A stretch of 64,000 nt of DNA from a virus. Both the position numbers and the translations under genes were made by a program. Positions 4,719 through 47,238 of this stretch are shown here, piece by piece (position 1 is the first letter of the stretch; each line of letters begins with the position of its first letter). The notes under the pieces are model-generated. The model saw nothing but the letters and a program-made list of their open reading frames with translations, was not told where the DNA came from and did not search any database. Where the stretch lies: positions 1 to 64,000 of IMG/VR virus record IMGVR_UViG_3300008262_000007; one strand, 5' to 3'.

Positions 4719-4722
4719 ATTT

Positions 4723-25331: not shown

Positions 25332-25347
25332 ATAGTTCTCCGTACAG

Positions 25348-25368
25348 TATTTATCGTAGCGATAAATA
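25348..25368. promoter_or_regulatory. Divergent late promoters between gp13 and gp14
   Basis: The inverted repeat TATTTATCG-TAG-CGATAAATA puts GATAAATA on both strands. On the minus strand the core (25348-25353) lies 16 nt before the gp13 ATG, with an SD between. On the plus strand the core (25363-25368) lies 5 nt before the gp14 ATG, with no SD. Confidence 0.6.
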
Positions 25369-25373
25369 TACAC

Positions 25374-28120: not shown

Positions 28121-28133
28121 GATAATTATTAGT

Positions 28134-30826: not shown

Positions 30827-32481
<1,655 letters not shown>

Positions 32482-33054
32482 TTAGGGTACCCAATTAAAG
32501 TTAATAACTAGTCTATGGTCGTGTGCAATTGGGCTTGTACTAGAGTGATAAGTTAAGCCGTCAAAAATAACTAATCTATCTGCCTTAGGTGATACTGTTT
32601 GATCAACAGTAAATTTTTTATTTTTGCTCCACTCGTAACTTGACACACTTAAACTTTGATCTCGTTTTTCTTTATAAAATATTGTATCACCGTCACTGTC
32701 GTTTACATAGTAAAGAGCTGTCATGTGGCCGTCGTCCCAATCTACATGAGGTTCATGAATAATTGGATATGGAGTTCTTGTAGTAAAGCCTGCTCTGATT
32801 CTAATTAATTTACTGAGCGACATTTGACTTTCGTACAGTGCCTTAATTAATATCGATTGTGCTAGAGACATTAACGGATTCATAATCTCATTATTATTGT
32901 ACATCATCAGCACCCATGACGGGTCATAAGGTTGTATTCTGTTGTCAAATTGATTATATGCAGTATTTCTTAAATAGAACCAAGGTTGGTCAAGCATTAA
33001 ATTTTCTAAATAGGATGCATTTGCTGGTGAAGTTACGTTGTCTATAACTTTCAT
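32482..33054 (-). CDS. 2OG-Fe(II) oxygenase (prolyl-hydroxylase-like), A
   Basis: The 190-residue protein has the double-stranded beta-helix metal triad H103-V-D105 (EPHVDWDD) and distal H170 (LTYHSSTSP), followed by R181 that would bind 2-oxoglutarate. The alternation YYVNDSDGDTIFY is typical of prolyl-4-hydroxylase-like enzymes. It would hydroxylate a protein side chain or small molecule using 2-oxoglutarate, iron and oxygen. Its stop abuts the groEL stop on the other strand. It has a late promoter 32 nt upstream with an AAAGGA SD. It opens the halogenase/oxygenase island. Confidence 0.85.
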   Translation of the reverse strand: MKVIDNVTSPANASYLENLMLDQPWFYLRNTAYNQFDNRIQPYDPSWVLMMYNNNEIMNPLMSLAQSILIKALYESQMSLSKLIRIRAGFTTRTPYPIIHEPHVDWDDGHMTALYYVNDSDGDTIFYKEKRDQSLSVSSYEWSKNKKFTVDQTVSPKADRLVIFDGLTYHSSTSPIAHDHRLVINFNWVP

Positions 33055-33082
33055 ATCGTGTCCTTTACGTCAAACAAGCTGG

Positions 33083-33094
33083 TAAATATTTATA
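33083..33094. promoter_or_regulatory. Overlapping divergent late promoters at the oxygenase island
   Basis: GGTAAATATTTATATG contains TAAATA on the plus strand (33083-33088), 5 nt before the ATG at 33094. It overlaps TATAAATA on the minus strand (33087-33094), 32 nt before the ATG at 33054. The two motifs share bases around the palindrome TAAATATTTA. Confidence 0.6.
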
Positions 33095-33843
33095 TGATAT
33101 TCAATAGCCCCGAAATAAAAATTAAATTTAAAACTTTTGATCCATTTGTTTTAAAAAATCTAGCACCACTATCTGCTCAAAAAAAATATCCTTCATGGTT
33201 TAAAGATACACCACCATTTAGCGGCGGTGGCGCCATATCAACAAACTTTGAGCCTATTCTAGCTCCAACTATTCGACGATGTCCAGCAATAAATGATTAT
33301 TTTTCAACTGGTGTAACTATACCTAACTGGACCGATTTAGAATTTTTTATTGACGGACCTAAAAAGTCAATGGAATGGCGTTACTCAAATAATTACACTT
33401 CTATGGAATTAGTACAGCCGCACGATTCTAGTCAGTTTCCGCAATTAGCAAACAAGTACCTTCATGCAAAAATTGTAAGTCCGTGGATAGCTGAATGTAA
33501 TTCTGACATAAAATGGTTTTTAACTAAGCCTAGTTATTTTTCTGAGTTTGATGATCAGGATGTGTTGTTCTGTGACGGAGTTGTTCAATTTTACAACAAC
33601 TTTGTAACTAATGTAAACTTATTTTTTCCTATTAGAGATCAATCCTATACTGTGAAATTTTCAGCAGGTGAGCCTTTTCAGAAGTATATTCCGCTTACAG
33701 AAAAGACGGTAAATATTACTACTGAATATTGTACCCAAGAGTATTATGACCTCGCAGCACTAAAAGGAAGAAAAATTTCCTACCATCTGGGAAAACTATA
33801 CAATATTTTTAAAAGAAATAACCGCAAGGAGAGAGAAAAATGA
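33094..33843 (+). CDS. Unknown protein opening the halogenase operon
   Basis: The 249-residue protein has a hydrophobic, aromatic-rich sequence with WFKDTPPFSGGG and a segment RRCPAINDYFSTGVTIPNWT that looks conserved-motif-like. There is no known cofactor site. It heads the plus-strand operon carrying halogenases and oxygenases. Its stop overlaps the next start by 4 nt. The ATG at 33094 is preferred over one at 33058, because the earlier ATG would place the promoter inside the gene. Function is unknown; an accessory or substrate-related role is guessed only from its position. Confidence 0.6.
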   Translation: MIFNSPEIKIKFKTFDPFVLKNLAPLSAQKKYPSWFKDTPPFSGGGAISTNFEPILAPTIRRCPAINDYFSTGVTIPNWTDLEFFIDGPKKSMEWRYSNNYTSMELVQPHDSSQFPQLANKYLHAKIVSPWIAECNSDIKWFLTKPSYFSEFDDQDVLFCDGVVQFYNNFVTNVNLFFPIRDQSYTVKFSAGEPFQKYIPLTEKTVNITTEYCTQEYYDLAALKGRKISYHLGKLYNIFKRNNRKEREK

Positions 33844-34211
33844 GTACCACAAGAATAGTCAACGGCGTAGAATACACAATACCGCCAGGAACAGAACATA
33901 TATGGACTGTGCCAGAAGAAGTAGTAGTAACTGCTCCTAGAGATGAAGTAACTGTAATTGATGCAATCAACGGTCTAAGAGTGCAGGCTATAGTTCGAAA
34001 TCAAAATGAAGCAAGAATACTTGCGTTAACAGATCAATTAGCTAGTATTTGGCAAAACTTTGTAGACACTACAATTACCAAAGCTGAATTAACAACACAG
34101 GTTGGTAATTTTAGAAACACTGAACTAGAAAATACAGAAGGTGTTGATAATATAACTGTTCAATTTTTTGAAACAGTAATTCTTAAAATGTTAAGCGAAA
34201 GCAATCCATGA
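33840..34211 (+). CDS. Small protein of the halogenase operon, unknown function
   Basis: The 123-residue protein has a short beta-rich N-terminus (MSTTRIVNGVEYTIPPGTEH) and a helical rest, and is hydrophilic with no signal peptide or cofactor motif. It overlaps its neighbours by 4 nt on both sides (ATGA), and an AGGAGAG-type SD lies before its start. It is clearly part of the operon. I do not recognise it. It could be a partner, carrier or substrate of the oxidative enzymes, but nothing in the sequence proves that. Confidence 0.6.
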   Translation: MSTTRIVNGVEYTIPPGTEHIWTVPEEVVVTAPRDEVTVIDAINGLRVQAIVRNQNEARILALTDQLASIWQNFVDTTITKAELTTQVGNFRNTELENTEGVDNITVQFFETVILKMLSESNP

Positions 34212-35806
34212 TAAAGCCAGTTAAAAAAATTATAATAGTAGGCGGCGGCAGCGCAGGTTGGATGAGTGCCGCTGCATTAATAAAAGCATATCCTGAAAAA
34301 GAGATTGTTGTAATTGAAAGTCCAAATGTTCCAATCGTAGGCGTAGGAGAAAGCACACTTGGCGGAATTAATGACTATTGTAAATTTTTAGAAATTGACG
34401 AAAAAGATTTCATGACATTTACTGATGCAAGTTATAAAATGAGCATCAAGTTTACTGACTTTTACGAAAAAGATGCAGGTGGATTTCATTATCCGTTTGG
34501 AAGACCATTAACACAAGGTACTATTAACGGAATGAATGATTGGCTCGTTAAAAAAGCACTATATCCAGATACTCCAATCGGTGATTATGTAAACTGCTTT
34601 TTTCCGGCCGCTGCTCTATGGGATCATAACAAGTTTGCGTTAAACAACTACGGACTTTTTGATAACTACGAACCAGACAATGATGTAGCATATCATTTTG
34701 ATGCAACAAAATTTGGTGCTTGGCTTAGAGAAAGATATTGCAAGCCTAGAGGTGTAAAACACATACCTACTACTGTAATAGATATTAAAGTAAACGAAAA
34801 TGGTGTAGAAAAACTTGTACTTGAGTCAGGCGATGAAATTTCTGCTGATTTATATGTTGACTGTACTGGCTTCAAAAGTATTCTGTTAGCAGGCGCTCTA
34901 AAAGAAGAGTTTGTATCATATAGTAATATGTTGCCAAACAATAAAGCTATAGCAACTCGAATTCCATATAAAGATAAAGAAAAAGAATTAGAACCATTTA
35001 CTAATAGTACAGCTATTGGCAATGGATGGGTATGGAATATTCCTAGTTGGGAACGCTTAGGTACAGGATATGTATATAGTGATAAATTTATTACTCCAAA
35101 AGATGCTAGAGAAGAATTTAAACAACATCTAATGAGCGATAAAATGGTAGTGCCTAGAACTAGAGAAGAAGTTGATGCTCTCGAGTTTAACGATATTAGT
35201 ATGCGTGTTGGAATTCACAAAAGAACTTTTGTAAAAAATGTTGTTGCTATTGGATTATCTGCAGGATTTATTGAACCACTAGAATCAAATGGCTTGTATA
35301 CTGTACACGAGTTTTTATTTAAATTAATTAAAACACTTGAGCGTCCAGCAATTACCCAATGGGATAAAGATGTATACAATGCAGCAACATTTGGTATGTG
35401 GAGAAATTTTGCACAATTTGTTGCAATGCACTACGCATTAAGTATCAGGGACGATACAGAATATTGGAAGGCTAATGCTAATCGAGTTTATTCTCCAGGC
35501 ATGCCGTCATTAGAGCCAGAAACTGCTATAGGATTTTATAAACTTCAAGGCGCAAAAATGTTTGAGTACGGTCATGATTCAGACATAGCAGGAATTAATT
35601 GGATTAGTGTAGGAATGAATTATTTTGTTTCTGATAAGACAACTGTAACTCTTAGACAAAATTTAAGAAGAGAAAATTTTAGAATTACTTACGACCCTAT
35701 TTTTAGAATGTGGGAAGAAAGAAAAGCTCGCTGGAATGAAAGTGCAAAAAATTACGGAAGTCTTTATCAATATTTAAAAGACAACATTCATAAAGGACAA
35801 GAATAA
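34208..35806 (+). CDS. Flavin-dependent halogenase-like protein 1 (tryptophan-halogenase family)
   Basis: The 532-residue protein has the FAD-binding motif VGGGSAGW (11-18), G-V-G-E-S-T at 45-50, and the catalytic Lys region ASYKMSIKF, with K77 equivalent to PrnA K79. It also has the halogenase signature WVWNIP (W274, W276) and the FIEPLES segment with E359, matching the catalytic Glu of PrnA/RebH. FADH2-dependent halogenases form a Lys-bound hypohalous species and halogenate electron-rich carbons. No flavin reductase gene is visible nearby. Viral homologues such as VirX1 have been shown to halogenate. The substrate is unknown. Confidence 0.85.
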   Translation: MIKPVKKIIIVGGGSAGWMSAAALIKAYPEKEIVVIESPNVPIVGVGESTLGGINDYCKFLEIDEKDFMTFTDASYKMSIKFTDFYEKDAGGFHYPFGRPLTQGTINGMNDWLVKKALYPDTPIGDYVNCFFPAAALWDHNKFALNNYGLFDNYEPDNDVAYHFDATKFGAWLRERYCKPRGVKHIPTTVIDIKVNENGVEKLVLESGDEISADLYVDCTGFKSILLAGALKEEFVSYSNMLPNNKAIATRIPYKDKEKELEPFTNSTAIGNGWVWNIPSWERLGTGYVYSDKFITPKDAREEFKQHLMSDKMVVPRTREEVDALEFNDISMRVGIHKRTFVKNVVAIGLSAGFIEPLESNGLYTVHEFLFKLIKTLERPAITQWDKDVYNAATFGMWRNFAQFVAMHYALSIRDDTEYWKANANRVYSPGMPSLEPETAIGFYKLQGAKMFEYGHDSDIAGINWISVGMNYFVSDKTTVTLRQNLRRENFRITYDPIFRMWEERKARWNESAKNYGSLYQYLKDNIHKGQE

Positions 35807-35807
35807 T

Positions 35808-36440
35808 ATGTTGGTTAACAATATTTTTGCTGGAAGGCTTGAACCGTCAGCTACTGTAGGCGGGTGCATAGATATTTTTGAAAATGCTTGGCCTGAGCCA
35901 GAGTTAACTATTGCAAGGATTGAACAAGAGTGTTCAAATATTAATTCAGGTGTTGGTTGGAGTAGAGCAGGAACCGTAGGTCAAGGGCATCGACAACAAG
36001 CTCGTACTAATTTAGGGTTAGGTATTACCTTAGGCGGCGAATCTGTTGATAGTCAAACTATGAAAGACATACACAATCAAATGTATTTTCTTTTATTAGC
36101 ATCTACAATTCCGTATACTGAACGATATGAAATGAATGAATACTTGTATCATGAACCGTACCAAGCATTAAAATATAGAGACGGTGAAGAATATAAAGCA
36201 CATTACGACGGTGGAACTCAATCAGGTAGATGTATTAGTGCAGTCGTATATCTCAACGACGAATACGAAGGTGGACACATTGAGTTTCCTAATTTTAAAA
36301 TTAAGATAAAACCTCAAAAAGGTATGTTGATTTTATTTCCATCTAATTTTGCGTATAAACATGTTGCACATCCTGTAACACAAGGAACAAAATATAGTCT
36401 AGTTACTTGGATTCACGATCGTCCAATTCAAGGAATGTAA
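35808..36440 (+). CDS. 2OG-Fe(II) oxygenase, B (prolyl-hydroxylase-like)
   Basis: The 210-residue protein has the iron triad H132-Y-D134 (YKAHYDGG), then VVYLNDEYEGGHIEFP and a distal H185 in KHVAHPVTQGTKYS, with K195 as the probable 2-oxoglutarate anchor. The order Y-L-N-D...G-G-x-x-x-F-P is the prolyl-4-hydroxylase pattern. It follows halogenase 1 after one base and lies 2 nt before the next oxygenase, so it is co-translated. It would add a hydroxyl to a substrate shared with, or made for, the halogenases. This last point is inference. Confidence 0.85.
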   Translation: MLVNNIFAGRLEPSATVGGCIDIFENAWPEPELTIARIEQECSNINSGVGWSRAGTVGQGHRQQARTNLGLGITLGGESVDSQTMKDIHNQMYFLLLASTIPYTERYEMNEYLYHEPYQALKYRDGEEYKAHYDGGTQSGRCISAVVYLNDEYEGGHIEFPNFKIKIKPQKGMLILFPSNFAYKHVAHPVTQGTKYSLVTWIHDRPIQGM

Positions 36441-36442
36441 CA

Positions 36443-37090
36443 ATGACTAATGCGGATCTTTTTCAAAAAAATAAGTATGTGCAAGTTAATAATGTATTGT
36501 CGCCCGAGCTGATCAATATAGCAACTACCTATGCGTTATTAGATGAAAGAAATGATCTATCATTAGAGGAAGGCGACTCTCCACAAATTCATAATTCGCA
36601 TAGCAAGTATGCTGATACGTTAATAGAAGCTTTTTTATTGTATCTGCATCCTATGATGGAAGAAAATACAGGTCTTAAGTTACATCCAACCTATTCGTAT
36701 TATAGAGTTTACAAACCTGGCGCTGATTTAGTAAAACACATCGATCGTCCTAGTTGCGAAATTTCTACTACAGTTACCTTAGGTTTTGATTATAAGGGTG
36801 CTGATTACGAATGGCCTATATTTGTTGGCGATGCTAGATGTGCTATGCAGCCAGGTGATCTTGTAATTTATAGAGGCTGTGAAGTAGAACATTGGCGCGA
36901 AGTATTTGATGCTCCGACTAATTCGTTTCATGTGCAATTTTTCTGTCATTATGTTGATGCTAACGGACCGTATGCAGATTTTAAGTTTGATAAAAGACCG
37001 TTTATTGGATATGATAAAGAAGGTAAATTAAACAAAACTGTTTCCAAACATTATTTTCCAAACAAAAAATATTTGACATTTACAGGATAG
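36443..37090 (+). CDS. 2OG-Fe(II) oxygenase-like protein, C
   Basis: The 215-residue protein has H99-I-D101 (LVKHIDRPS) and a distal H150 in EVEHWREVF. YYRVYKPGADL lies before the first pair and GDLVIYRGC lies between, the normal order in the double-stranded beta-helix. It lacks a clear Arg/Lys right after the second His, so 2-oxoglutarate binding is less certain than in its neighbours. The ATG at 36443 is chosen because an AAGGA SD fits it. An ATG 12 codons earlier would lie inside the previous gene. Confidence 0.75.
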   Translation: MTNADLFQKNKYVQVNNVLSPELINIATTYALLDERNDLSLEEGDSPQIHNSHSKYADTLIEAFLLYLHPMMEENTGLKLHPTYSYYRVYKPGADLVKHIDRPSCEISTTVTLGFDYKGADYEWPIFVGDARCAMQPGDLVIYRGCEVEHWREVFDAPTNSFHVQFFCHYVDANGPYADFKFDKRPFIGYDKEGKLNKTVSKHYFPNKKYLTFTG

Positions 37091-37091
37091 T

Positions 37092-37655
37092 ATGATAGAA
37101 GTATTTGATAATATTCTATCCGCCGAAGAGTGTGATCACATAGAGCAGTTTTTAAGAGATCCAAAATTTCCTTGGTTTTTATCTATAGGACACAATCATT
37201 GTACAACAGATTTTGATAATATTAAAAAAAATTCAAACTCTTGGTCTGGTGAAGCACTGTTACTTACACATGTATTTTATCTTGATAAATTAAAAAATTC
37301 TGATAATTATCTATTGTCAGATTTTATATTAAATAGATTCTTAGATCGTTCTAAAATTCAATTTACAGAACTATTTAGATCTAAAGCAAATCTACAACCA
37401 GCATCGCATAATGCTAATCAAATATATACAACTCCACACATTGATGGTAATAGTGACCATAAAGTCCTAATATATTATGCCAACAACTGCGACGGAGATA
37501 CGTTTATTTTTAATGATCATGCTACAGGATCTATACTAAAACAAGTTACTCCTAAAAAGGGAAGATTTTTATTATTTGATGGAAATCTATATCACGCTGC
37601 TGGCTTTCCAAGCGAATCAAATTTTAGACTTAATGTAAATTTTAATTTAATATGA
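37092..37655 (+). CDS. 2OG-Fe(II) oxygenase, D
   Basis: The 187-residue protein has H116-I-D118 (TTPHIDGN), a Y-Y-A-N-N-C-D-G-D-T-F-I-F segment and H168 (LYHAAGFPS) with R179 as the probable 2-oxoglutarate ligand. It resembles the proteins at 32482 and 39811, with similar length and ending (R-L-x-V-N-F-N), so these three form a paralogous group. It follows oxygenase C after one base and overlaps oxygenase E by 4 nt. The substrate is unknown. Confidence 0.85.
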   Translation: MIEVFDNILSAEECDHIEQFLRDPKFPWFLSIGHNHCTTDFDNIKKNSNSWSGEALLLTHVFYLDKLKNSDNYLLSDFILNRFLDRSKIQFTELFRSKANLQPASHNANQIYTTPHIDGNSDHKVLIYYANNCDGDTFIFNDHATGSILKQVTPKKGRFLLFDGNLYHAAGFPSESNFRLNVNFNLI

Positions 37656-38242
37656 TACACGGTAAAATAGAAGATTTTATTGGCATTTACGAAAATGCTG
37701 TTAGTGCAGAACATTGCAATGCTATGATCAACTACTTTGAAAGTCTTAGAGACTATAATCTTGTTATTGATCAAGATCAATATACTACACAAGCTACTGT
37801 AAGAAAAGACGAATCAGTATTTTTATGCCACCCTGATGTAATAACATTGCCTAAAGGTTCACCTATTATTTTTCCGTTTGCAGACGCATTATGGAAATGC
37901 TACGAAGATTATACTAAAGAGTTTGAAATGCTAAGAACTGCTGCCAAACACGGTTTTTATATGTTGCGTATACAGCGAACTGATAAAGGCGGAGGCTTTC
38001 ATAATTGGCATTTTGAAAATACTGGAAATGAAACATCAAATAGATTAGTCACATTTATGATGTATCTTAACGATGTAGAAGAAGGAGGTGAAACAGAATT
38101 CCTTTATCTCCATAAAAGAATAAAACCTAAAGCAGGTACTATGCTAATATGGCCGTCTACCTATACACACACGCATCGAGGAAATCCTCCGCTAAGTGGA
38201 ACAAAGTATATTATAACAGGATGGTTAACATACTTTGAATAA
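37652..38242 (+). CDS. 2OG-Fe(II) oxygenase, E, with an HxE metal motif
   Basis: The 196-residue protein belongs to the phage prolyl-4-hydroxylase-like group. FHNWHFENTG supplies H120 and E122, an HxE in place of HxD. MMYLNDVEEGGETEFLY follows, then YTHTHRGNPP with H175 and K185 in GTKYI for 2-oxoglutarate. HxE versions are familiar in marine phage members of the family, so this is not a broken site. It overlaps oxygenase D by 4 nt and lies 6 nt before halogenase 2. Confidence 0.85.
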   Translation: MIHGKIEDFIGIYENAVSAEHCNAMINYFESLRDYNLVIDQDQYTTQATVRKDESVFLCHPDVITLPKGSPIIFPFADALWKCYEDYTKEFEMLRTAAKHGFYMLRIQRTDKGGGFHNWHFENTGNETSNRLVTFMMYLNDVEEGGETEFLYLHKRIKPKAGTMLIWPSTYTHTHRGNPPLSGTKYIITGWLTYFE

Positions 38243-38248
38243 GTTAAT

Positions 38249-39811
38249 ATGATTCATATAGATAAAAATTTTAAATTTGTAATTGTAGGCGGAGGTAGTG
38301 CTGGATGGATTTCTGCACTATTTGTTCGTGCAAACTTTCCTGATAGTCAGATCACTGTTATACAAAGTAGCGAAATAGGAATACTTGGAGCAGGTGAAGG
38401 TACTACTCCTCATATTATAGATTTTTTAGATGAAATTGATGTTCCTGTAAGCAGACTAATCAAGGATGCAAAAGCAGTTTTAAAAAGCGGTATTAAATTT
38501 TCTAATTGGAACGGTGATAGAAAATACTACTACCATTCGTTTATGGATAACCCAGAGTTGGATCATACTATATTCAGCGAATTAAAGCACACAAAGTTAC
38601 CATTATTAGATCTCGAAGTGATTGCTAACGGAGGATCATTAGATGACATAGGTTTTAATTCAGCAGCGTCTGATAGAAATTGTGTGAGATTTATTCCTAA
38701 TCCATCTGCTACTAACAAAGATTTAGATCCTATACTACACTTTACTAGATTAGGAAGAACTGCGCTTCATTTTGATGCTAACTTACTAGCATCGTGTCTT
38801 GAAAATATAGGCAGGTCAAGAGGCATTAATGTCATAGACGGCATTGTTACAAACTTTACTACTACAGACAGTGGACATATTACATCAGTTAATATTGATT
38901 CAAAAAAGATTGAATGCGATTTTGTGTTTGATTGTTCGGGCTTTAAGAGATTAGCCATTGGTAATTTGTATAAAACGCCATGGAAAAGTTACAAAGAGTA
39001 TTTGCCTGCAAAGCGAGCAATGCCATTCTTTATTCCAAATAACTCACAAATAATTCCTCCTTACACAGATTCAACCGCTATGAAATGGGGATGGATGTGG
39101 AAAATTCCAGTTCAAGGCAGATTTGGTTGCGGATATGTTTATGATAGCGATAGAGTTTCTGATGAAGATGCCAAAGCAGAACTAGATCAAGAAATAGGTA
39201 TTGAGGTTGAAGTGCCTAGGATATTAAACTTTGAACCAGGTAGATTTGAAAAAATATATGAAAAGAATTGTTTAGCTATTGGACTAAGTTCGGGCTTTAT
39301 AGAACCGTTAGAGGCTACCTCTATATGGACGTCATTGATGATGCTGAATGCATGGATAGAAAATCCGGCGGCCATAACACATAACGATCAGACTGCTAGA
39401 GATAAAGTTAATCAACGGCATTGTGACATGAACGATAACACTCTAGGATTTGTTTATTTTCATTATATCACAAAAAGGGATGACACTACGTTTTGGAGTA
39501 ATTTCACTAAAGACAATAAGATTCCAGCATCGTTGCATAAGTTATTAGAAGAATCAAAACACACAATACCTAGTTATGATATGTTTTCTAACATAGGTCT
39601 AGACTGGGCTGCAAAGAGCTTTTTAGCATGCGGTAATGGACAAAAGTTTTTTAATCCTGATCATGCTAAAAAAATATTTGATGCTTACTATAATGGTAAA
39701 AGAAAAGACGATTATGATCTATTAAAGTATCAGTACTTTAGAAATATTAATTTAAATTTAACAACATTAATAGATCACTATTCTTTTATAGAATATATGA
39801 GAAATAATTAA
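38249..39811 (+). CDS. Flavin-dependent halogenase-like protein 2
   Basis: The 520-residue protein has VGGGSAGW (13-20), G-A-G-E-G-T-T (48-53), K79 in VLKSGIKFSNW, WMWKIP (W282, W284) and FIEPLEATS with E355 at the catalytic Glu position. All the usual halogenase residues are kept. It is clearly different from halogenase 1 outside these motifs and closer to halogenase 3. It follows oxygenase E and overlaps oxygenase F by one base. It would need reduced FAD from a host reductase. The substrate is unknown. Confidence 0.85.
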   Translation: MIHIDKNFKFVIVGGGSAGWISALFVRANFPDSQITVIQSSEIGILGAGEGTTPHIIDFLDEIDVPVSRLIKDAKAVLKSGIKFSNWNGDRKYYYHSFMDNPELDHTIFSELKHTKLPLLDLEVIANGGSLDDIGFNSAASDRNCVRFIPNPSATNKDLDPILHFTRLGRTALHFDANLLASCLENIGRSRGINVIDGIVTNFTTTDSGHITSVNIDSKKIECDFVFDCSGFKRLAIGNLYKTPWKSYKEYLPAKRAMPFFIPNNSQIIPPYTDSTAMKWGWMWKIPVQGRFGCGYVYDSDRVSDEDAKAELDQEIGIEVEVPRILNFEPGRFEKIYEKNCLAIGLSSGFIEPLEATSIWTSLMMLNAWIENPAAITHNDQTARDKVNQRHCDMNDNTLGFVYFHYITKRDDTTFWSNFTKDNKIPASLHKLLEESKHTIPSYDMFSNIGLDWAAKSFLACGNGQKFFNPDHAKKIFDAYYNGKRKDDYDLLKYQYFRNINLNLTTLIDHYSFIEYMRNN

Positions 39812-40398
39812 TGATTGTAAATAACGTTCTTTCTACTAACGATTATAACAACTTATACAATCTAGTATCGGGCGTAAACTTCCCGTGGTATTATCAACCT
39901 GATATAGCATTTAGAGGGTTTGATGAGCCTGTGCAAGATCCACGTATGTTTCCTAGTCATGGTTTTACTCATGTAGTATGGGATTGTGATCAAGGAAAAG
40001 TATCAGATGTTTTGCAATTTGTAGCACCAATTATTGAAAGTTTTCAAAAACAACTTGGTGTTAAAATTAATAATTTTTTAAGAATAAAAATAAATTTACA
40101 AACACCAATTATTGGATATACTAACGATCACTATAATGGCCCGCATATTGATAGATTTGATCCGCACAAAACACTCATCTATTATCTTAATGACAGTGAC
40201 GGTGATACTTTCATTTTTAATAAAGAATACAATCCTAACGATAAATCAACTTGGCATCCAGTTAGTCCGGATATTAAAGAAAGAGTTACTCCAATTGCAA
40301 ATTCTTTATATTTTTTAGAAAACGGATTCACTTATCATTCAGGAAGCAATCCAGTTAATAGTCCAAGAAGAATCACAATTAATATCAATTACAACTAA
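39811..40398 (+). CDS. 2OG-Fe(II) oxygenase, F
   Basis: The 195-residue protein has H112-I-D114 (GPHIDRFD), the YYLNDSDGDTFIF segment, and H176 (FTYHSGSNP) with R187. It is a close relative of oxygenases A and D by motif order and length. It shares its first base with the end of halogenase 2 and its last base with oxygenase G, so translation is coupled. A hydroxylation reaction is expected; the substrate is unknown. Confidence 0.85.
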   Translation: MIVNNVLSTNDYNNLYNLVSGVNFPWYYQPDIAFRGFDEPVQDPRMFPSHGFTHVVWDCDQGKVSDVLQFVAPIIESFQKQLGVKINNFLRIKINLQTPIIGYTNDHYNGPHIDRFDPHKTLIYYLNDSDGDTFIFNKEYNPNDKSTWHPVSPDIKERVTPIANSLYFLENGFTYHSGSNPVNSPRRITININYN

Positions 40399-40988
40399 TG
40401 GCAAATTTAATAATAGATAGATGGTTTTCAAATCCGGTATGGGAAACTGATCTAAATTTAAACAATGACGAACTTATAGCATATGCTTACGAGCTAAAAT
40501 CAAAGAAAGACGGAATACATAAATCTAATAGAGAAGGGTGGCAATGTTCTGATATTGAAAATCCACCTAACTCTTATTTAAATTTAATAGAATCAATAAA
40601 CAACACGCTGGTCGATGTGCATCGATCAATGGGATTAAAAATAGAATATCCATCATATGTTAAAGGCAGTTGGATTAATATTAATCCATATGGCAGTTAC
40701 AATCTTAGACACCTGCATCCAAGAAGTTTATTCAGTGGAGTATATTATCCTAAAGTTCCAGAAGGCGAATGTGGTGATTTAATTTTTTATAGAGATCATG
40801 TAATGCTCAGTTACTTACCAAATCATATTGTAGAAAATTGGAATGATATGACTAGTGGAACAACTGTATATAAAGCAAGGACAGGAATGCTTTTAATTTT
40901 TCCTAGTTGGTTAGAACATTCTGTTACTACTAACCTTACTAGTGAAGATAGGATTTCAATAAGTTTTAATACTAACTACGACTATTAA
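40398..40988 (+). CDS. 2OG-Fe(II)-type oxygenase, G (TIGR02466-like)
   Basis: The 196-residue protein differs from its neighbours. It has NPYGSYNLRHLHPRS followed by SGVYYPKVP, then GMLLIFPSWLEHSV with H174 and R185 in EDRISIS. This is the pattern of the TIGR02466 family of putative 2OG-Fe(II) oxygenases. The HLH pair (H105, H107) is the first metal region, and which residue replaces the usual Asp is unclear. It closes the plus-strand operon. Its stop overlaps the stop of the convergent small gene by 4 nt. Confidence 0.75.
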   Translation: MANLIIDRWFSNPVWETDLNLNNDELIAYAYELKSKKDGIHKSNREGWQCSDIENPPNSYLNLIESINNTLVDVHRSMGLKIEYPSYVKGSWININPYGSYNLRHLHPRSLFSGVYYPKVPEGECGDLIFYRDHVMLSYLPNHIVENWNDMTSGTTVYKARTGMLLIFPSWLEHSVTTNLTSEDRISISFNTNYDY

Positions 40989-41389
40989 ATAGACGTTTTT
41001 CCTCTAGTCAGCACACCGTAGTTTTTATCGTTAAATTTGTCCATAAATCTAAAGTGTGCATCTTTAGAATATGGAATTTTTAATTCGTCTATTCTTTCTA
41101 ATACTTGAGGTTGTACGAATCTTCCATAGAACGCTTCTAGATCTTCACCCCAGTTATGTCGTATGATATAATATTCTGCATAAGGGCACCAAGCTGCATA
41201 TACTGCTGTGCCGCCGCCTCGTTCTATGATAACTTCCCATATTTCAACATCTTCGATTTCCATAATCCTGTCGTAGCTCCAATCAGGACTAGGTGGTAAA
41301 ACTATTTTATCTGAGTCCATGTTATTATCATTCCACACTTCGTCATTAAAATCTTCAAAAATATTCTTAGTTGTCTTAAACTGAGGCAT
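40985..41389 (-). CDS. Conserved-looking phage protein, unknown function
   Basis: The 134-residue protein is acidic and rich in Trp and Tyr (DWSYDRIMEIEDVEIWEVII, then TAVYAAWCPYAEYYIIRHNW). It has no metal, nucleotide or membrane motif that I recognise. It overlaps the preceding small gene by 14 nt and lies downstream of halogenase 3 on the minus strand. Its compact, hydrophobic-patterned sequence indicates a folded protein. Its function is unknown. Confidence 0.55.
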   Translation of the reverse strand: MPQFKTTKNIFEDFNDEVWNDNNMDSDKIVLPPSPDWSYDRIMEIEDVEIWEVIIERGGGTAVYAAWCPYAEYYIIRHNWGEDLEAFYGRFVQPQVLERIDELKIPYSKDAHFRFMDKFNDKNYGVLTRGKTSI

Positions 41390-41585
41390 TATCTGTTAGA
41401 TCCTTTATCGATAAATTAAGTTTTTTCCAGCTATGTTTTCCTTCGGTAGCATGCCCAGTATAAAGTTCTCCAGTTTCTTGATCAATTAAGATCCATTTCT
41501 CTGGACACTTAGTTACTACTGTAAGTGTTATTGCAGATTCTAATTCTGCAACTTTTTTACTGTTTTTTAATTTTCTTACCTTCAT
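41376..41585 (-). CDS. Small basic protein, unknown function
   Basis: The 69-residue protein begins with a Lys-rich stretch and continues into a probable beta-rich domain (TLTVVTKCPEKWILIDQETG, then LYTGHATEGKHSWKKLNL). I do not recognise the family. It lies 9 nt behind halogenase 3 and overlaps the next gene, so it is probably part of that minus-strand operon. A role with halogenase 3 is possible only by position. Confidence 0.5.
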   Translation of the reverse strand: MKVRKLKNSKKVAELESAITLTVVTKCPEKWILIDQETGELYTGHATEGKHSWKKLNLSIKDLTDNASV

Positions 41586-41594
41586 TACAGATAC

Positions 41595-43022
41595 CTATTG
41601 ATAATTTGTAGTAATATGTTTTAGAAAGTCTGTTTCAGCAATGTGATACATGTTAGATTCTATTAGATCTTTGTGCGCCGATTCAGGATTAAGTAAGTCA
41701 AGTCCTGCCATACTCCAATTCCATAAGCCAATTGCAGGTGCACCAAAATTATTAGCTATTTCAAAATAACTTACTAACTTATTTTTTGATCGAGTAATAA
41801 TATTATCAGCGAACGGACTAACAATATTGTTTTCTTTTATATGGCGCCAGAATGGAGTATCTGCTCTAGTGCCTTGGTAGTGCATAGAAACAAAGTCTAG
41901 ATTAAGATCATAAAAATGTGCAGTTCGCGTGTTATATGAATCTTGATTTTCTATTAGGTTTGTAGTTTTAAGATCACTTGATAAGAAGTCATTAATAAAC
42001 AATAGTAGTTGAGCAATAGTAGTATGGATACTTGTAGCTTGTAGCGGTTCAACAAAACAACTTGCTAGTCCTAAGGACAATACATTTTTTTCCCAGAACT
42101 TTTCTGATCTGCCTGGGTCAAAATTTATTATCTTAATAGGAGTAATTTCTCTTCCAAGTAACTGCTCCACTTCAAGTTTAGCATCTTCTGCTGATATAAA
42201 ATTATTGTTGTAAACATAACCGCATCCTCGTCGAGTTTGTAAAGGTATGTCCCACATCCAACCAGATGACAGTGCCGTAGCATCAGTCCAAGGTTTTATT
42301 TTATCATTTTGAGTATAGTCTAAAAGAAATGGCATTGCAGTATTGCAGGGCAAATACTTACTGTAGGACTTCCATCCTACATTTAATTTTTTCATTAGAA
42401 TTTTATTAAAGCCGCTGCAATCAATAAAAAATTCTGATTCAATTTTTCTACCATCATCTAGAACTACTGATTGTATATGTCCGTTTTGAGGATCAAGCAC
42501 ACAGTCTTTAACTATAGCGTCAATGTGTGTGATGTTATCTTTTATGCAGCGTTCTTTAAAAAACTTTCCAACTTTGTGTGCATTAAAATGAAACGCATTA
42601 AACACATTGTAGTTTCTTTCTACTTCGTAGTCTAGACCTATTTTAGAAGCGATATGAGCTTTGTCTTTACCAAACTTGTGCAGTACATATTTAAACACAT
42701 GATCATTCATTCTACCAGCTGAAGGACTGCCGTCTAGGGGTGTAAAAAATGAAGTATTATCACCTAACCAATTATTAAATTTAATACCAATTTTGTTAGT
42801 TGCATCACAGTAGTCTACAAACTCTTGTAGATTAATGTCAGTTTTGAAATATCTTCCAGCTAAGAGATCAGTGAAGAATCCTGTAGATCCTTCTCCGGCA
42901 CCAATAATGCCAATTTCACTTGATTCAATTACTGTAATTTTGTGTATGTTTGGCTGCGACTTACTTATACAATAAGCCGCTAGCCAACCGGCTGTGCCGC
43001 CGCCAACGATTGTTATATTCAT
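41595..43022 (-). CDS. Flavin-dependent halogenase-like protein 3, catalytic Glu replaced by Gln
   Basis: The 475-residue protein has VGGGTAGW (6-13), G-A-G-E-G-S-T (41-47), K77 in TNKIGIKFNNW and WMWDIP (W255, W257). Where PrnA/RebH and the other two copies have EPLE, it reads FVEPLQATS, so the Glu that helps catalysis in tryptophan halogenases is Gln328. Activity may be lower or altered. It is the only halogenase on the minus strand and is followed by two small unknown genes. A near-match late motif TAAATT lies 5 nt before the ATG, with no SD. Confidence 0.82.
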   Translation of the reverse strand: MNITIVGGGTAGWLAAYCISKSQPNIHKITVIESSEIGIIGAGEGSTGFFTDLLAGRYFKTDINLQEFVDYCDATNKIGIKFNNWLGDNTSFFTPLDGSPSAGRMNDHVFKYVLHKFGKDKAHIASKIGLDYEVERNYNVFNAFHFNAHKVGKFFKERCIKDNITHIDAIVKDCVLDPQNGHIQSVVLDDGRKIESEFFIDCSGFNKILMKKLNVGWKSYSKYLPCNTAMPFLLDYTQNDKIKPWTDATALSSGWMWDIPLQTRRGCGYVYNNNFISAEDAKLEVEQLLGREITPIKIINFDPGRSEKFWEKNVLSLGLASCFVEPLQATSIHTTIAQLLLFINDFLSSDLKTTNLIENQDSYNTRTAHFYDLNLDFVSMHYQGTRADTPFWRHIKENNIVSPFADNIITRSKNKLVSYFEIANNFGAPAIGLWNWSMAGLDLLNPESAHKDLIESNMYHIAETDFLKHITTNYQ

Positions 43023-43067: not shown

Positions 43068-44264
43068 TTAAGTATTTCTGTATCGAATTACAACGACTCC
43101 AGGGCCGCCGTCACCACTTTGTGTGTTACTCCAATATCCGCCACCACCGCCTGCACCTGAATTTGTAGCGCCTGATTGTCCTGCAACTGAGCCTGTTCCG
43201 CCCTCACCTCCACCAAACGCATTTAAACTTCCACCGTGAGCGCCTGCAAGTCCGTAATGACCGTAGTTACCTGGGGCGTGTGTACCTGCGCCACCACCGC
43301 CAGCATATCGAGTAAGAGTTCCTGTTACTTGACTTGCTAGGCCAGCACCACCTGTGCCCATTTCGTTACCACTGCTTGTTGGTTTACCAGACGATCCAGC
43401 ACCGCCTCCACCACCACCGCAGTGAATGGTAGTAGAACCTGCTGCCCAGCCAAAGCCGCCACCGTGAGCACCAAAGCCGCCAGGGTGACCTTGACCTGCT
43501 ATACCGCTGCCATATCCATTGCCTTCCATGGAAATATGATCGTTATTGTTTCCTGTAGGCGTACCTTGAAGTGTAGCATTTGGCATTCCTGCTAACCAAG
43601 GATGGTTAGTTCCTTGATTTCCGTGACCGCCGGGCGCTTGTGGCCACCAACCGCCCTCACCTCCTGCTCCTGGTGTGTGTCCGCCAGGGCCACCGCCACC
43701 ACTACCACCGTTATTCAATCGTATTACTGAATGTCCAGAAGTATATGAACTACCTCTACCGCCGCCGATAGCATTGTACTGCTGAGGTATTCCTGCTCCT
43801 ACTACACTAGAAGGATTTCCTGGGTTTTGATTGTTAGCATTATGCTGTGTTTCTCTTGAGCCGCCTGCGCCTACGTTAATGGTATAGTTGCCTGCGGGCA
43901 AACTGGCCTGCGATTCATATATCATTCCGCCTGCGCCACCACCACCACCAATTTGTGCACCACCACCACCACCGGCAACCATTAGTACTTCTACCTGTCC
44001 TGGATATGTCATAGTAAAGGTTGTAGATCCACTGGTAAATGTGTGTATTCTATATCCACCTGTGGTACTAAGTGTACCGCCAGAACCTAGTGCAGATCCT
44101 TCGAGGGTTACCCAAACAGTTCCGTTGTATACTTCATTTCTTGCGTTATCGGTATTGTATCGAATCATTCCAGCACTTGGAGTGACTGGACGTTGTGCAG
44201 TTGTTCCACTAGGAAGTTGAATAAATCCACTATCGTTTACTGTTACATTTTTTAACGTTGCCAT
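43068..44264 (-). CDS. Gly-rich tail-fibre adhesin-like protein 1
   Basis: The 398-residue protein starts MATLKNVTVNDSGFIQLPSG, a fibre-joining module shared by the two following proteins. A G-M-I-R-Y-N-T-D segment and a short beta region come next. From about residue 90 it becomes a Gly-rich domain with many runs of three to five Gly between aromatic and polar residues, ending GPGVVVIRYRNT. Such polyglycine-rich ends resemble receptor-binding adhesins of T4-like phages. This is probably a host-recognition protein at a fibre tip. Confidence 0.7.
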   Translation of the reverse strand: MATLKNVTVNDSGFIQLPSGTTAQRPVTPSAGMIRYNTDNARNEVYNGTVWVTLEGSALGSGGTLSTTGGYRIHTFTSGSTTFTMTYPGQVEVLMVAGGGGGAQIGGGGGAGGMIYESQASLPAGNYTINVGAGGSRETQHNANNQNPGNPSSVVGAGIPQQYNAIGGGRGSSYTSGHSVIRLNNGGSGGGGPGGHTPGAGGEGGWWPQAPGGHGNQGTNHPWLAGMPNATLQGTPTGNNNDHISMEGNGYGSGIAGQGHPGGFGAHGGGFGWAAGSTTIHCGGGGGGAGSSGKPTSSGNEMGTGGAGLASQVTGTLTRYAGGGGAGTHAPGNYGHYGLAGAHGGSLNAFGGGEGGTGSVAGQSGATNSGAGGGGGYWSNTQSGDGGPGVVVIRYRNT

Positions 44265-44267
44265 TTA

Positions 44268-45356
44268 TTATATCCTATATTTCACAATAACCACACCCGG
44301 GCCGCCCAAGCCTGCTGGATTTTCGCCGCCTGGGTGAGCACCACCTCCACCTCCACCACCTCGGTTAGTTCCACCAGCTGTAGCTACTGCGCCGCCGTGT
44401 GTACCTGAATTTCCTGTGCCGTCGCCGGCACCACCTGGATCTGGACTATGGCCGTAGGCAGGATTAACGTGTGTTCCGCCAGCACCGCCAGCTGCATAAA
44501 TTACTGCTGAGCCGCCTATTGCATTTGTAATTCCCTGTCCGCCGTGACAGCGAACCCAATTAGAATATCTGCTTATTCCTCGTGATCCTGCGCCACCACC
44601 TGATCCTCCAGCATGTGTTGCTCCAGAACCTTGAGTACCCGGATTTGGATATCCTGGGCCAGTGCCGTGGTGACCGTATCCGCCTGGATGTCCTTGTCCT
44701 ATTACGCCTGTACCGCCTGGATGTTCACCGGGATAGCTGGTATATACTGTACCTGGAGTTCCGTTTCCGCCTGGACCGCCGCCACCTGAACCACCGCTCA
44801 TTGCAGGAATTGTACTGCCTGCACTATATTGGCCACCTTTGCCGCCGCCCACTGCTTCGATGTTTGCATTTGGTCCAACAAAACTTGATGGACCGCCGGA
44901 TGTTCCTTCATCTGAATAGTGATGGAATCCGCCTGCGCCACCGCCACCTCTATTAATTGTATAATTCTGTCCACCTATGACCGATACTGCTGATTCATAA
45001 ACGTATCCGCCTGCACCGCCTCCGCCGCCGATTGGAGCGCCACCACCGCCACCACCTACTACCAATACTTCTGCTCTACCTGTATAAGGAGCACTAAAAG
45101 TACCACTGCTAGTAAATGTATGAATTCTATAGCCGCCTGCTGTTGTAATAGTACCGCCGGTTGCTATTGTGGTTCCTGAACCTGCACTTATTGACCCGTC
45201 TGCTGTTTTCCAAACTCCGTTAACATACTGTTCAACTTCGTTAGTAGTAGTGTTAAATCTAAAATCACCGTTGGTATTGGTTCTTGCAGCAGTATTACCT
45301 ACGGCTGCTTGTATAAATCCAGTGTCGTTTACTGTTAAATTCTTTAGCGTTGCCAT
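44268..45356 (-). CDS. Gly-rich tail-fibre adhesin-like protein 2
   Basis: The 362-residue protein has the same N-terminal module (MATLKNLTVNDTGFIQAAVG) and the same strand leading to GGGGGGAPIGGGGGAGGYVY as its neighbours. Its Gly-rich loops differ in length and sequence. It ends GPGVVIVKYRI. It lies 3 nt behind protein 3 in transcription order and just ahead of protein 1. The three genes look like tandem duplicates whose recognition loops have diverged. Confidence 0.7.
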   Translation of the reverse strand: MATLKNLTVNDTGFIQAAVGNTAARTNTNGDFRFNTTTNEVEQYVNGVWKTADGSISAGSGTTIATGGTITTAGGYRIHTFTSSGTFSAPYTGRAEVLVVGGGGGGAPIGGGGGAGGYVYESAVSVIGGQNYTINRGGGGAGGFHHYSDEGTSGGPSSFVGPNANIEAVGGGKGGQYSAGSTIPAMSGGSGGGGPGGNGTPGTVYTSYPGEHPGGTGVIGQGHPGGYGHHGTGPGYPNPGTQGSGATHAGGSGGGAGSRGISRYSNWVRCHGGQGITNAIGGSAVIYAAGGAGGTHVNPAYGHSPDPGGAGDGTGNSGTHGGAVATAGGTNRGGGGGGGAHPGGENPAGLGGPGVVIVKYRI

Positions 45357-45358
45357 TC

Positions 45359-46384
45359 TTAACCTCGATATCTTACAATAACCACGCCTGGACCACCTGG
45401 GCCGCCGCCTTGTGGTTCTGGTGAATATGGACCACCACCACCACCACCACCTAAGTTAGTGCCGCCAGCTTGACCGTTTTGACCCGGAAGTGTATTTCCT
45501 AAACTGCCTCTACCTGCAAGAGTTGATACTCCGTGACCTGGGCTGTGATAGCCGCCGCCACCACCGCCTGCTCTCCAAACTACACCGCCGCCAATGTTTG
45601 ATGCCATGCCTTCACCGCCACGACCTTGTTGATTACGATTTGAGCGTCCGTAGCCCATTGAGCCTGCGCCACCGCCTCCACCACCACCATAGTGTGTACC
45701 TGTAGGAGTTCCGTTATAATGAGCACCTACGCCACCTGGGTGTCCTTGTCCTGCTGTTCCAGCTGCTCCAGCATGTATAGTTTCTGGACCACCATTCCAT
45801 CCTGGGCCACCACCACCTGATCCACCGCCACTAGTTGGTTGACTACCTGGGGGATAATGACATCCTCGGCCACCGCCTGTTGCTACAATTGATACTGGAG
45901 TACCGCCGCCAAATGTGCTAGGATTACCTGAAGTACCATCATTTGCACTATGACTTGAACAGCCATTGCCACCTGTTCCAACAACTGCGGGATACGCAGT
46001 TCCAGCAACTACAGGAACTCCGCTAACATAGATATAGCCGCCTGCGCCGCCTCCACCTGAAATACTGTGGCCTCCGCCACCGCCTGCAATTGTTAGTACT
46101 TCTACAACACCGTCTTTGGTTGGTGTAAATTGTTGTGTTCCAGAAGTAAATGTGTGAATTCTATATCCTGCTGCGGTAGTGATTGCTCCGCCTGTACTAG
46201 CATTACCTACTGTTGACTCTTCTACACGTACCCAAGCACTACCATTCCAATATTCATTAGATGCAATATCTGTATTGTATCTTATCATACCAACCGTTGG
46301 ACTACCTGGTCGCTGTGCGTTTGTTCCGCTAGGAAGTCTGATAAACCCAGTATCGTTTACAGTAAGATTTTTTAATGTTGCCAT
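45359..46384 (-). CDS. Gly-rich tail-fibre adhesin-like protein 3
   Basis: The 341-residue protein has the shared N-terminus MATLKNLTVNDTGFIRLPSG and the shared end GPGVVIVRYRG around a divergent Gly-rich domain with His, Asn and Tyr between Gly runs. It is first of the tandem trio in transcription order and overlaps the S74-fibre stop by one base. A role in receptor contact is inferred from the Gly-rich adhesin resemblance. Confidence 0.7.
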   Translation of the reverse strand: MATLKNLTVNDTGFIRLPSGTNAQRPGSPTVGMIRYNTDIASNEYWNGSAWVRVEESTVGNASTGGAITTAAGYRIHTFTSGTQQFTPTKDGVVEVLTIAGGGGGHSISGGGGAGGYIYVSGVPVVAGTAYPAVVGTGGNGCSSHSANDGTSGNPSTFGGGTPVSIVATGGGRGCHYPPGSQPTSGGGSGGGGPGWNGGPETIHAGAAGTAGQGHPGGVGAHYNGTPTGTHYGGGGGGGAGSMGYGRSNRNQQGRGGEGMASNIGGGVVWRAGGGGGGYHSPGHGVSTLAGRGSLGNTLPGQNGQAGGTNLGGGGGGGPYSPEPQGGGPGGPGVVIVRYRG

Positions 46385-47238
46385 TACTTAGCTGCCCTTA
46401 ATTCATTAATTTCTTGTTTTAAAGTTTTAATAGATTCAATTAGATAAGCTGTTAATTTAGTATATTTAATACCTATAGTGTTACCTAGGTCATCTTTAGT
46501 AACTAAGTCTGGTAACACTTCATCTGTCCATTCAGCAATCAACCCTGCTTCGTGTTCTTTATTATCAATACGATCGTAAGTTACGCCACTTAGTTTTAAA
46601 ATGCTGTCTAGTGCATTCTCAATTGGCAAAATATTTTCTTTTAATGTTATACTAGAAGTTTCAACAATGCCTGCCGCAGTTAATTGACCACCAACACCTA
46701 CTCCACCTGTAACTACTAATGCTCCGTTTGTAACAGCATTTGATACTGTACTTGCTGTTACACGCATCTCTGTTGAACTCAATACTCCTGTACTTGGCAC
46801 AAAAGTTAGTTTAGTACTGCTTACAGATACTGTTGACACTGTTCCTGTAGTAGCAGTAGTAATTGCTGGATAATATACTGCTGTGTCAGCTGCTTGGTTA
46901 GCCACACTAACGAATGGAGCAACCCAACTCAAATCTCCGCTTGCGTTACTTCTTAATACTGTATTATCAACGGCTGCGGCTGGAAACGTATAAGTTACGT
47001 TAGCACTAACAGTTGCGGGTGCCCTAAGTGCTACAAAATTGCTAGAGTCAGCATCGGCTAATCTTAAACTATTTTGAGCATTAATCTGCATAGAACTAAC
47101 AGACTGCACAATGCCAGAGCCATTTGGTTCTAACAATACATTAGCATTAGACACTACAGATTGAATACTATTATTAACGGTAGTTAGGCTACCTAGCACT
47201 GCTCGACCTACTTTACCTGATGTGATTTTTCTAGACAT
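46384..47238 (-). CDS. Tail fibre with C-terminal S74 intramolecular chaperone
   Basis: The 284-residue protein has a beta-rich fibre N-terminus. From about residue 195 it has a Peptidase_S74-type domain: SSITLKENI with S195 and K200 as the probable Ser-Lys dyad, then EHEAGLIAEWTDEVLPDLV and a coiled-coil end ESIKTLKQEINELRA. This domain helps fibre trimers fold and then cuts itself off. The usual D after the Ser is another Ser here, so cleavage might be weaker. It has an AAGGAA SD and precedes the three adhesin-like genes. Confidence 0.75.
   Translation of the reverse strand: MSRKITSGKVGRAVLGSLTTVNNSIQSVVSNANVLLEPNGSGIVQSVSSMQINAQNSLRLADADSSNFVALRAPATVSANVTYTFPAAAVDNTVLRSNASGDLSWVAPFVSVANQAADTAVYYPAITTATTGTVSTVSVSSTKLTFVPSTGVLSSTEMRVTASTVSNAVTNGALVVTGGVGVGGQLTAAGIVETSSITLKENILPIENALDSILKLSGVTYDRIDNKEHEAGLIAEWTDEVLPDLVTKDDLGNTIGIKYTKLTAYLIESIKTLKQEINELRAAK

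Follow-up and report, generated by a model that had tools for sequence, protein, structure and literature searches.

A halogenase- and oxygenase-rich island beside the fibre genes of a T4-like aquatic phage, possibly a tailoring module for virion adhesins

Gene content and layout of the island

The 64 000-nt stretch of viral DNA analysed here (the window) contains an island of halogenase and oxygenase genes that adjoins fibre genes, as had been pointed out in an earlier note made from the sequence. The coordinates and strands of all the ORFs named in that note were borne out, and so was the packing of the plus-strand genes, which overlap or abut; 32482 and 40985–43022 are on the minus strand. 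The features, with their left border and their fibre-gene neighbours, are listed below.

24573–28565 (mixed strands): left border, serving as fixed flank in the unbiased survey described below; gp13-like head-tail adaptor (−), structural protein, gp15-like sheath stabiliser, NUDIX (+)
32482–33054 (−): 2OG-Fe(II) oxygenase, Oa type, phrog_274; H103-x-D105...H170...R181
33082–33094 (no strand): palindrome GTAAATATTTATA, a T4-type late-promoter motif in back-to-back arrangement, separating 32482 (−) from 33094 (+)
33094–33843 (+): DUF6065-like protein, phrog_7084, dUTPase-like beta-fold core
33840–34211 (+): small conserved protein, function unassigned
34208–35806 (+): flavin-dependent halogenase 1, VirX1-type; K77 = PrnA K79, E359 = E346
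35808–36440 (+): 2OG-Fe(II) oxygenase, Ob type, phrog_61; H132xD134...H185...K195
36443–37090 (+): 2OG-fold oxygenase, Oc type, phrog_2954 ('ferrochelatase'); P4H fold in the predicted structure, lacks the 2OG-binding Arg
37092–37655 (+): 2OG-Fe(II) oxygenase, Oa type
37652–38242 (+): 2OG-Fe(II) oxygenase, Ob type, facial triad variant H-x-E
38249–39811 (+): flavin-dependent halogenase 2, distinct deep clade
39811–40398 (+): 2OG-Fe(II) oxygenase, Oa type
40398–40988 (+): PF13759-type oxygenase, HxH...H instead of HxD/E
40985–41389 (−): U409, conserved protein, function unassigned; minus-strand unit with halogenase 3
41376–41585 (−): small protein, phrog_4098 match at its C-terminal part
41595–43022 (−): flavin-dependent halogenase 3 (halogenase-like, see below); Gln328 at the PrnA E346 position
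43068–47238 (−): fibre-side neighbours, regarded as candidate substrates; three Gly-rich fibre-type proteins plus one with Peptidase_S74 (fibre chaperone)

The clustering of the oxygenase genes is not due to chance, since every PF13640 match of the 138-kb record falls at 32.5–40.4 kb. Wherever dN/dS could be computed for island genes it was 0.04–0.22, each tested gene being under purifying selection; together with motif conservation (see below) this rules out decayed or selfish genes. Halogenase 3 starts 44–45 bp downstream of a same-strand fibre gene, both in the window and in relatives. Pfam and PHROG matches revealed no NRPS, PKS or carrier proteins (scaffold-building enzymes) among the island genes, and a megablast search of the island against isolates returned no match.

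DUF6065-like proteins are repeatedly found beside phage halogenases. The core fold of the one in the window is dUTPase-like, but TM is only about 0.4–0.6, depending on the target; identification as a dUTPase was rejected and no catalytic role is claimed. We found no literature on DUF6065.

Characteristics of the halogenases and oxygenases

The note had counted three halogenases and seven oxygenases, and both numbers stand. Genes 34208, 38249 and 41595 match PF04820 (E = 3e-100, 2e-94 and 4e-93, respectively) as well as phrog_2928. The first and third Gly of the GxGxxG-type motif and the lysine at the PrnA-K79 position are invariant in 139/139 halogenases, WxWxIP is well conserved across homologues, and all three window proteins possess the three elements. 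A glutamate occupies the PrnA E346 position in halogenases 1 and 2, whereas in halogenase 3 alignment with 2JKC (E346D) places Gln328 there, a Gln kept in all orthologues of this protein. Since loss of activity has been reported for a halogenase with a Glu-to-Gln change (PMC8407142), we class halogenase 3 as halogenase-like only. In the tree the three proteins fall in three deep clades, which rules out recent duplication of one of them. The best solved relative of halogenase 1 is VirX1 from cyanophage Syn10 (PDB 6QGM): residues 5–529 align with VirX1 residues 4–528, nearly the whole length (E = 1e-99), and the key Lys and Glu are kept. Halogenases 2 and 3, in contrast, belong to other deep clades than VirX1, and halogenase 3 further differs from it by its Gln. 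According to a review (PMC8407142), VirX1 prefers iodide and broadly accepts bulky substrates, toward which its active site is unusually open. No PF01613 match, indicative of a phage-encoded flavin reductase, was found across 11 phage records; reduced flavin is therefore presumably host-derived.

For six of the seven oxygenases there is a match to a 2OG-Fe(II) family in Pfam or PHROG, several of the Pfam scores being just under cut-off. The seventh, 36443, has no Pfam match; it was assigned by its predicted structure (pLDDT 90), a prolyl-4-hydroxylase fold with a double-stranded beta-helix, which at E about 1e-8 finds its best PDB matches in P. putida P4H, P4H with EF-Tu and PHD2. Its PHROG label, 'ferrochelatase', is regarded as a mislabel, as are 'DNA endonuclease V' and 'minor coat protein' among these oxygenase families. 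The iron ligands are fully conserved across homologues (HxD in 65/65 for Oa and 39/39 for Oc, HxD/E in 93/93 for Ob), and the C-terminal 2OG-binding Arg/Lys is found in 63/65 Oa, 93/93 Ob and most Od sequences; the family of 36443 has His or Cys at that position. The conserved motifs claimed earlier thus hold for the halogenases (FAD, Lys, WxWxIP) and, as concerns the HxD/E...H triad, for six oxygenases but not for 40398, which has HxH...H, with an HxH invariant in its own family (125/125).

Late-promoter motifs

The T4-type late-promoter motif ATAAATA is 33.7-fold enriched at operon starts in this genome, and one copy is situated about 33 nt upstream of oxygenase 32482. The divergent palindrome, which splits the island, is kept in relatives L012, L014, L015 and L017; in L016, from which the DUF6065 gene is missing, the divergent motif persists as TTAAATATTTAA. 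A sigma-70 promoter scan across the island gave hits at chance level. From these motifs, which are matches in sequence and not observed transcripts, we infer that the island is probably expressed late.

Contents of the syntenic site in related phages

With regard to gene set and order in related phages, to which the note had attached importance, the order proved to be conserved in relatives at 65–85% identity. The syntenic site was surveyed in 62 relatives picked by the neighbouring tail gene, with a 10-kb view. Its contents vary between the fixed gp13/gp15/NUDIX flank and the far-side fibres, as expected of a host-recognition or hyperplastic region: halogenases are present in 12 relatives, oxygenases in 41 and an ADP-heptose-type module in 35. 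At this site halogenases tend to take the place of the heptose module: the two are anti-associated (OR 0.10, P = 0.003), less strongly once the relatives are thinned (P = 0.03, 0.10 and 0.02 at 90, 80 and 70% clustering), and the 10-kb view may account for part of the effect.

Co-presence of halogenases and oxygenases was not significant (P = 0.19). Of 50 relatives, 31 have oxygenases and no halogenase at this site, and 2 of the 12 halogenase loci have no oxygenase in view. This argues against the joint oxidative-halogenation pathway initially proposed, and a single obligate pathway is rejected given the lack of a significant link. The number of oxygenases per locus is nevertheless higher with a halogenase than without (3.0 versus 0.92, P = 0.006). 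The note would have considered a joint pathway unlikely if motifs were lost or the genes showed no tendency to stay together; the motifs are kept and the genes tend to cluster, but without obligate partnership, so that half of what would speak against such a pathway was observed.

The Gly-rich fibre type is not significantly linked to halogenases in the survey (2/12 versus 3/50, P = 0.25). In only 27 of 110 halogenase contigs, many of them short, a halogenase is in a codirectional run with a fibre-like gene. Fourteen sister halogenase loci carry a carbamoyltransferase gene, and sister islands also encode a protein with Methyltransf_24 and another weakly resembling GT9.

Possible function of the island

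The explanation that we favour, though tentatively, is that the island is a tailoring-enzyme module of the hypervariable host-recognition region of a T4-like aquatic phage, which would modify the phage's own fibres or adhesins late in infection. The heptose anti-association, the strong purifying selection and the three deep halogenase clades argue for this reading, as do the location by the fibres, the position of halogenase 3 behind a fibre gene, the late-promoter motifs, the lack of scaffold-building enzymes, the inclusion of protein hydroxylases among P4H-like folds (P. putida P4H-EF-Tu, PHD2) and the open active site of VirX1 (PMC8407142); virion adhesins would be the most likely target. 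Fibre-side location and late motifs fit a virion-protein substrate. Against this, proximity to fibres could reflect hotspot hitch-hiking, the Gly-rich fibre type shows no significant link to halogenases, few halogenase contigs have a halogenase codirectional with a fibre-like gene, and the heptose anti-association weakens on thinning. Host-supplied reduced flavin and halide would power the halogenases, which would modify exposed Trp, Tyr or His of fibre or adhesin proteins, while the oxygenases, powered by 2OG, Fe and O2, would carry out Pro/Asn/Lys-type hydroxylation on the same proteins. Modification before or during virion assembly would diversify host recognition, and the exchange of the enzyme module for the ADP-heptose-type module at the same site would amount to a choice between alternative chemistries. 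A more specific version, which we consider doubtful, is that dedicated late enzymes halogenate and hydroxylate the phage's own fibres or adhesins as a swappable recognition layer, halogenase 3 targeting a different residue from halogenases 1 and 2, e.g. tyrosine, since it lacks the E346 glutamate and lies behind fibre genes.

Alternatively, the island might make or decorate a small molecule or capsular sugar, giving a halogenated, hydroxylated metabolite derived from an amino acid or sugar. This is the published prediction for the S-SSM6a cyanophage cluster (PMC7824862); it agrees with the small aromatics that are the classic substrates of flavin-dependent halogenases and with the carbamoyltransferases, Methyltransf_24 and GT9-like proteins of the sister islands. 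We think it rather unlikely here, as the window island has no gene recognisable as a carbamoyltransferase, methylase or scaffold enzyme and neither late-promoter motifs nor fibre linkage would be predicted. That the genes have no joint function, being independent morons gathered at a recombination hotspot by the fibre genes, would suit a site of a known hyperplastic or host-recognition type (PMC2984593, PMC7029224), the non-significant halogenase–oxygenase co-presence and the supply of halogenases from three deep clades. The conserved gene order and catalytic residues, the greater number of oxygenases beside halogenases and the co-occurrence of the same families, in differing orders, in cyanophages and the window clade make this improbable. 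Least probable, in our estimation, is a change of the host surface (LPS, lipid A or an outer-membrane protein) that would block superinfection: LPS glycosyltransferases of pelagimyophage clusters have been so interpreted (PMC7029224) and ADP-heptose-type genes alternate at the syntenic site, but LPS is devoid of the electron-rich aromatics that flavin-dependent halogenases need, and late-promoter motifs would put the surface change late.

We know of no protein-halogenating enzyme within the flavin-dependent halogenase family, which weighs against the explanation that we favour. If true, modification of virion adhesins would add a new layer to phage–host recognition, and the halogenases would form a new, protein-modifying class. 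The late motifs, fibre adjacency, DUF6065 partner and heptose alternation raise a concrete question, namely whether phage adhesins are chemically decorated; as island-bearing phages (Syn9, S-RIM44 and HTVC008M) are in culture, it can be answered by virion mass spectrometry.

Comparison with known systems

The nearest cellular relatives of halogenase 3 (≤37% identity) are in BrvH-type loci of Colwellia and Sphingomonadales, 6FRL being the best PDB match. There, as in the phage island, several halogenases are often in tandem, but the flanks consist of Cupin_8 proteins and TonB receptors (48/80); only 6/80 bacterial loci have neighbours of the phage type, an oxygenase or DUF6065, and several of these six resemble phage contigs. 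Transfer of a bacterial halogenase operon is thus ruled out.

Like the pelagimyophage host-recognition cluster and the cyanomyovirus hyperplastic region, the island is a variable one in the structural module near neck genes, with fibres and non-structural enzymes; unlike them, it contains halogenases and oxygenases instead of LPS glycosyltransferases or photosynthesis and carbon genes (PMC7029224, PMC2984593). Reports of halogenases and of numerous 2OG oxygenases in marine phages go back to about 2010, with ascribed roles in antibiotic making, 2OG/nitrogen signalling and DNA repair (PMC2984593, PMC3037559, PMC9964418); we found no native substrate reported for any of them, VirX1 included.

Contrary to the earlier statement that no such phage system had been described, cyanophage clusters of halogenase and 2OG oxygenase genes have been published. 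In the 8–12-gene cluster of S-SSM6a, the metabolite role of which is predicted only, a halogenase is accompanied by several 2OG-Fe(II) oxygenases, a carbamoyltransferase and a methylase (PMC7824862). We also saw halogenase and 2OG clusters in Syn9, S-RIM44, Sf-CH11 and HTVC008M, and location beside fibres is found in cyanophages too, with differing gene orders. We recognised neither the carbamoyltransferase nor the HemK-like methylase of the S-SSM6a core in the island of the window, which differs from that cluster by its three halogenases, seven oxygenases, DUF6065 protein and fibre-flanked late-promoter setting. This kind of cluster is therefore already known and recurrent in aquatic T4-like phages, and the island described here is a variant of it.

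Enzyme families and catalytic residues

All open reading frames of the earlier note were found again at their positions. The three halogenases (gene starts 34208, 38249 and, on the minus strand, 41595) match PF04820 (Trp_halogenase; E 3e-100 to 4e-93) as well as phrog_2928, and six of the seven oxygenases match 2OG-Fe(II) families (Pfam and/or PHROGs). The seventh (36443), with profile matches only to phrog_2954 ('ferrochelatase') and one related PHROG, was identified from structure prediction (pLDDT 90): the model has a prolyl-4-hydroxylase fold and most resembles P. putida P4H (4J25; 4IW3 with EF-Tu) and PHD2. Four PHROGs occur here on proteins of 2OG-oxygenase type (phrog_274, phrog_2297, phrog_2954 and phrog_1644), and the names 'DNA endonuclease V', 'DNA endonuclease', 'ferrochelatase' and 'minor coat protein' look like mislabels of such proteins. 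The clustering of oxygenases is real, since in the whole 138-kb virus record PF13640 detects five genes and every one of them sits at 32.5-40.4 kb. Gene 33058/33094 (to 33843) encodes a DUF6065-type protein of the phrog_7084 family, one member of which matches PF19541 (E=1e-6); the predicted beta core of these proteins is dUTPase/dCTP-deaminase-like, and no literature on DUF6065 was found.

Key residues are intact save for the exceptions that follow. The proposed conservation of halogenase motifs is borne out: the FAD-motif glycines and the lysine of PrnA K79 are invariant in 139/139 homologues from phage loci, where WxWxIP is also well kept. Virtually all oxygenases retain their iron ligands, and the proposed HxD/E...H pattern fails at 40398, which has an HxH that is invariant in its homologues (125/125); 36443 is without the 2OG-binding Arg/Lys. 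At the PrnA E346 position Glu is normally essential. Gln occupies this position (fixed with PDB entry 2JKC, E346D) in halogenase 3 (41595-43022), in each of the five distinct sequences of halogenase 3 that share 56% identity or more, and in only 9 of the 139 phage halogenase rows. Because a Glu-to-Gln change is described in a review as inactivating a halogenase (PMC8407142), halogenase 3 may act on another class of substrate.

Relatives of the island

The window comes from a 138,417-base virus record, which has T4-type terminase, sheath, sheath stabiliser and head-tail adaptor genes plus a GroEL gene. No close isolate was found at the DNA level; a nearly identical contig of 185,762 bases exists in IMG/VR, as do shorter ones. 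Gene order is kept in relatives whose halogenases are 65-85% identical, as the earlier note had proposed to check (<, minus strand): GroEL / <oxygenase / DUF6065 / small protein / halogenase / oxygenases / halogenase / oxygenases / <unknown / (<halogenase) / <fibres. Oxygenase and halogenase copies have been gained and lost among these relatives, and pairwise dN/dS against one relative is 0.04-0.22 in all genes with unsaturated dS. The other lineages Syn9, S-RIM44, Sf-CH11 and HTVC008M have these families too, differently ordered and placed either between fibre and neck genes or next to neck/terminase genes. The window halogenases fall into three deep clades, one each, and up to five halogenases occur per record; two related contigs (L138/G033 and L204/G035) have four or five, several at the same site as the island. 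The complete phage GroEL gene (30892-32481) directly adjoins the island, as it does in several relatives. At 2585-5583, towards the left edge of the window and away from the island, lie sugar-nucleotide genes, namely a nucleotide-sugar epimerase and a Nucleotidyltransferase-MannoseP_isomer fusion.

Among cellular homologues, those closest to halogenase 3 (Colwellia, Sphingomonadales and others) share at most about 37% identity with it. A copied bacterial operon was ruled out as source of the phage set because these homologues have other neighbours: TonB receptors at 48/80 loci, and Cupin_8 proteins, with oxygenase/DUF6065 neighbours at only 6/80, some of which resemble phage contigs in metagenome bins. 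Four contigs assigned to bacterial MAGs (L381, L343, L337 and L350; labels such as Maricaulis and Porticoccaceae) bear the phage-type halogenase/oxygenase set and are probably misbinned phage contigs.

Survey of the syntenic site

Relatives of the neighbouring sheath-stabiliser gene were picked regardless of halogenases. Upstream of this gene 16 oxygenases and 0 halogenases were counted in 860 kb, vs 117 and 45 in 969 kb downstream. A downstream stretch of 7 kb or more was available in 62 contigs. Halogenases occur in 12 of these, oxygenases in 41, DUF6065 in 13 and an ADP-heptose-type module in 35 (by Pfam, a PfkB kinase with nucleotidyltransferase, an epimerase and a cupin). Halogenases and this module tend to exclude each other: it is present in 2/12 loci with halogenases vs 33/50 without (OR 0.10, p=0.003, kinship ignored and 7-10 kb in view; clustering at 90%, 80% and 70% gives p=0.03, 0.10 and 0.02). 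In four phage loci (L140, L151, L192 and L201) the module (kinase-nucleotidyltransferase, epimerase, HAD phosphatase, cupin) lies downstream of the NUDIX gene, at the site that the island fills in the window; a carbamoyltransferase sometimes accompanies it, and its holders are mostly without halogenases.

Promoter motifs and expression

Upstream of this genome's operon starts the 7-mer ATAAATA, which forms the T4 late-promoter core, shows 33.7x enrichment (10/38); across the window, TATAAATA as a whole is depleted (1 observed vs 9.6 expected). One feature stands exactly between the minus-strand 32482 oxygenase and the plus-strand block:

33082-33094, both strands, back-to-back T4-type late-promoter motif TAAATATTTA, copies overlapping

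The motif is kept in relatives despite a diverged surrounding spacer. Since the plus-strand DUF6065 start codon follows only a few bases behind it, the late mRNA of this gene may be leaderless; a relative's locus without DUF6065 (L016) has a normal leadered copy (6658) ahead of the next gene. The same-strand distance from fibre gene to halogenase 3 start is 45 bp in the window and 44 bp in relatives. Together, motifs and fibre-gene placement suggest that the island is likely expressed late.

Possible function and known systems

We infer timing, substrate and benefit of the island. The best-supported reading, held tentatively, is a tailoring module, expressed late, in the host-recognition region: halogenases supplied with host flavin and halide, and oxygenases with 2OG and oxygen, would modify virion adhesins. 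PF01613 flavin reductase was found in none of 11 phage records. Decoration of a small molecule or capsule, the role predicted for a cyanophage cluster of halogenase, 2OGFeDO enzymes and carbamoyltransferases in a 2021 survey (PMC7824862), appears rather unlikely here. Accumulation at a hotspot with no joint function, also unlikely and a little more so, bears on the earlier expectation that halogenases and oxygenases stay together. That expectation held only for oxygenase number (mean 3.0 per locus with halogenases vs 0.92 without, p=0.006, in tests that ignore shared ancestry and view 7-10 kb); simple co-presence was not significant (10/12 vs 31/50, p=0.19, kinship ignored). A change of the host surface is the least probable of these readings.

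Halogenase and 2OG genes of cyanophages were tabulated in 2010 (PMC3037559), and antibiotic protection, 2OG/NtcA signalling or DNA repair has been ascribed to them (PMC3037559 among the sources); S-SCSM1 has 24 2OG genes (PMC9602691). The earlier view that no described phage system has this gene set must be dropped, the 2021 cluster being already published. In kind, the island's location matches that of the pelagimyophage host recognition cluster (PMC7029224). From the cyanophage cluster and this matching location, the kind is therefore known, and the island is a larger, carbamoyltransferase-free variant of it.
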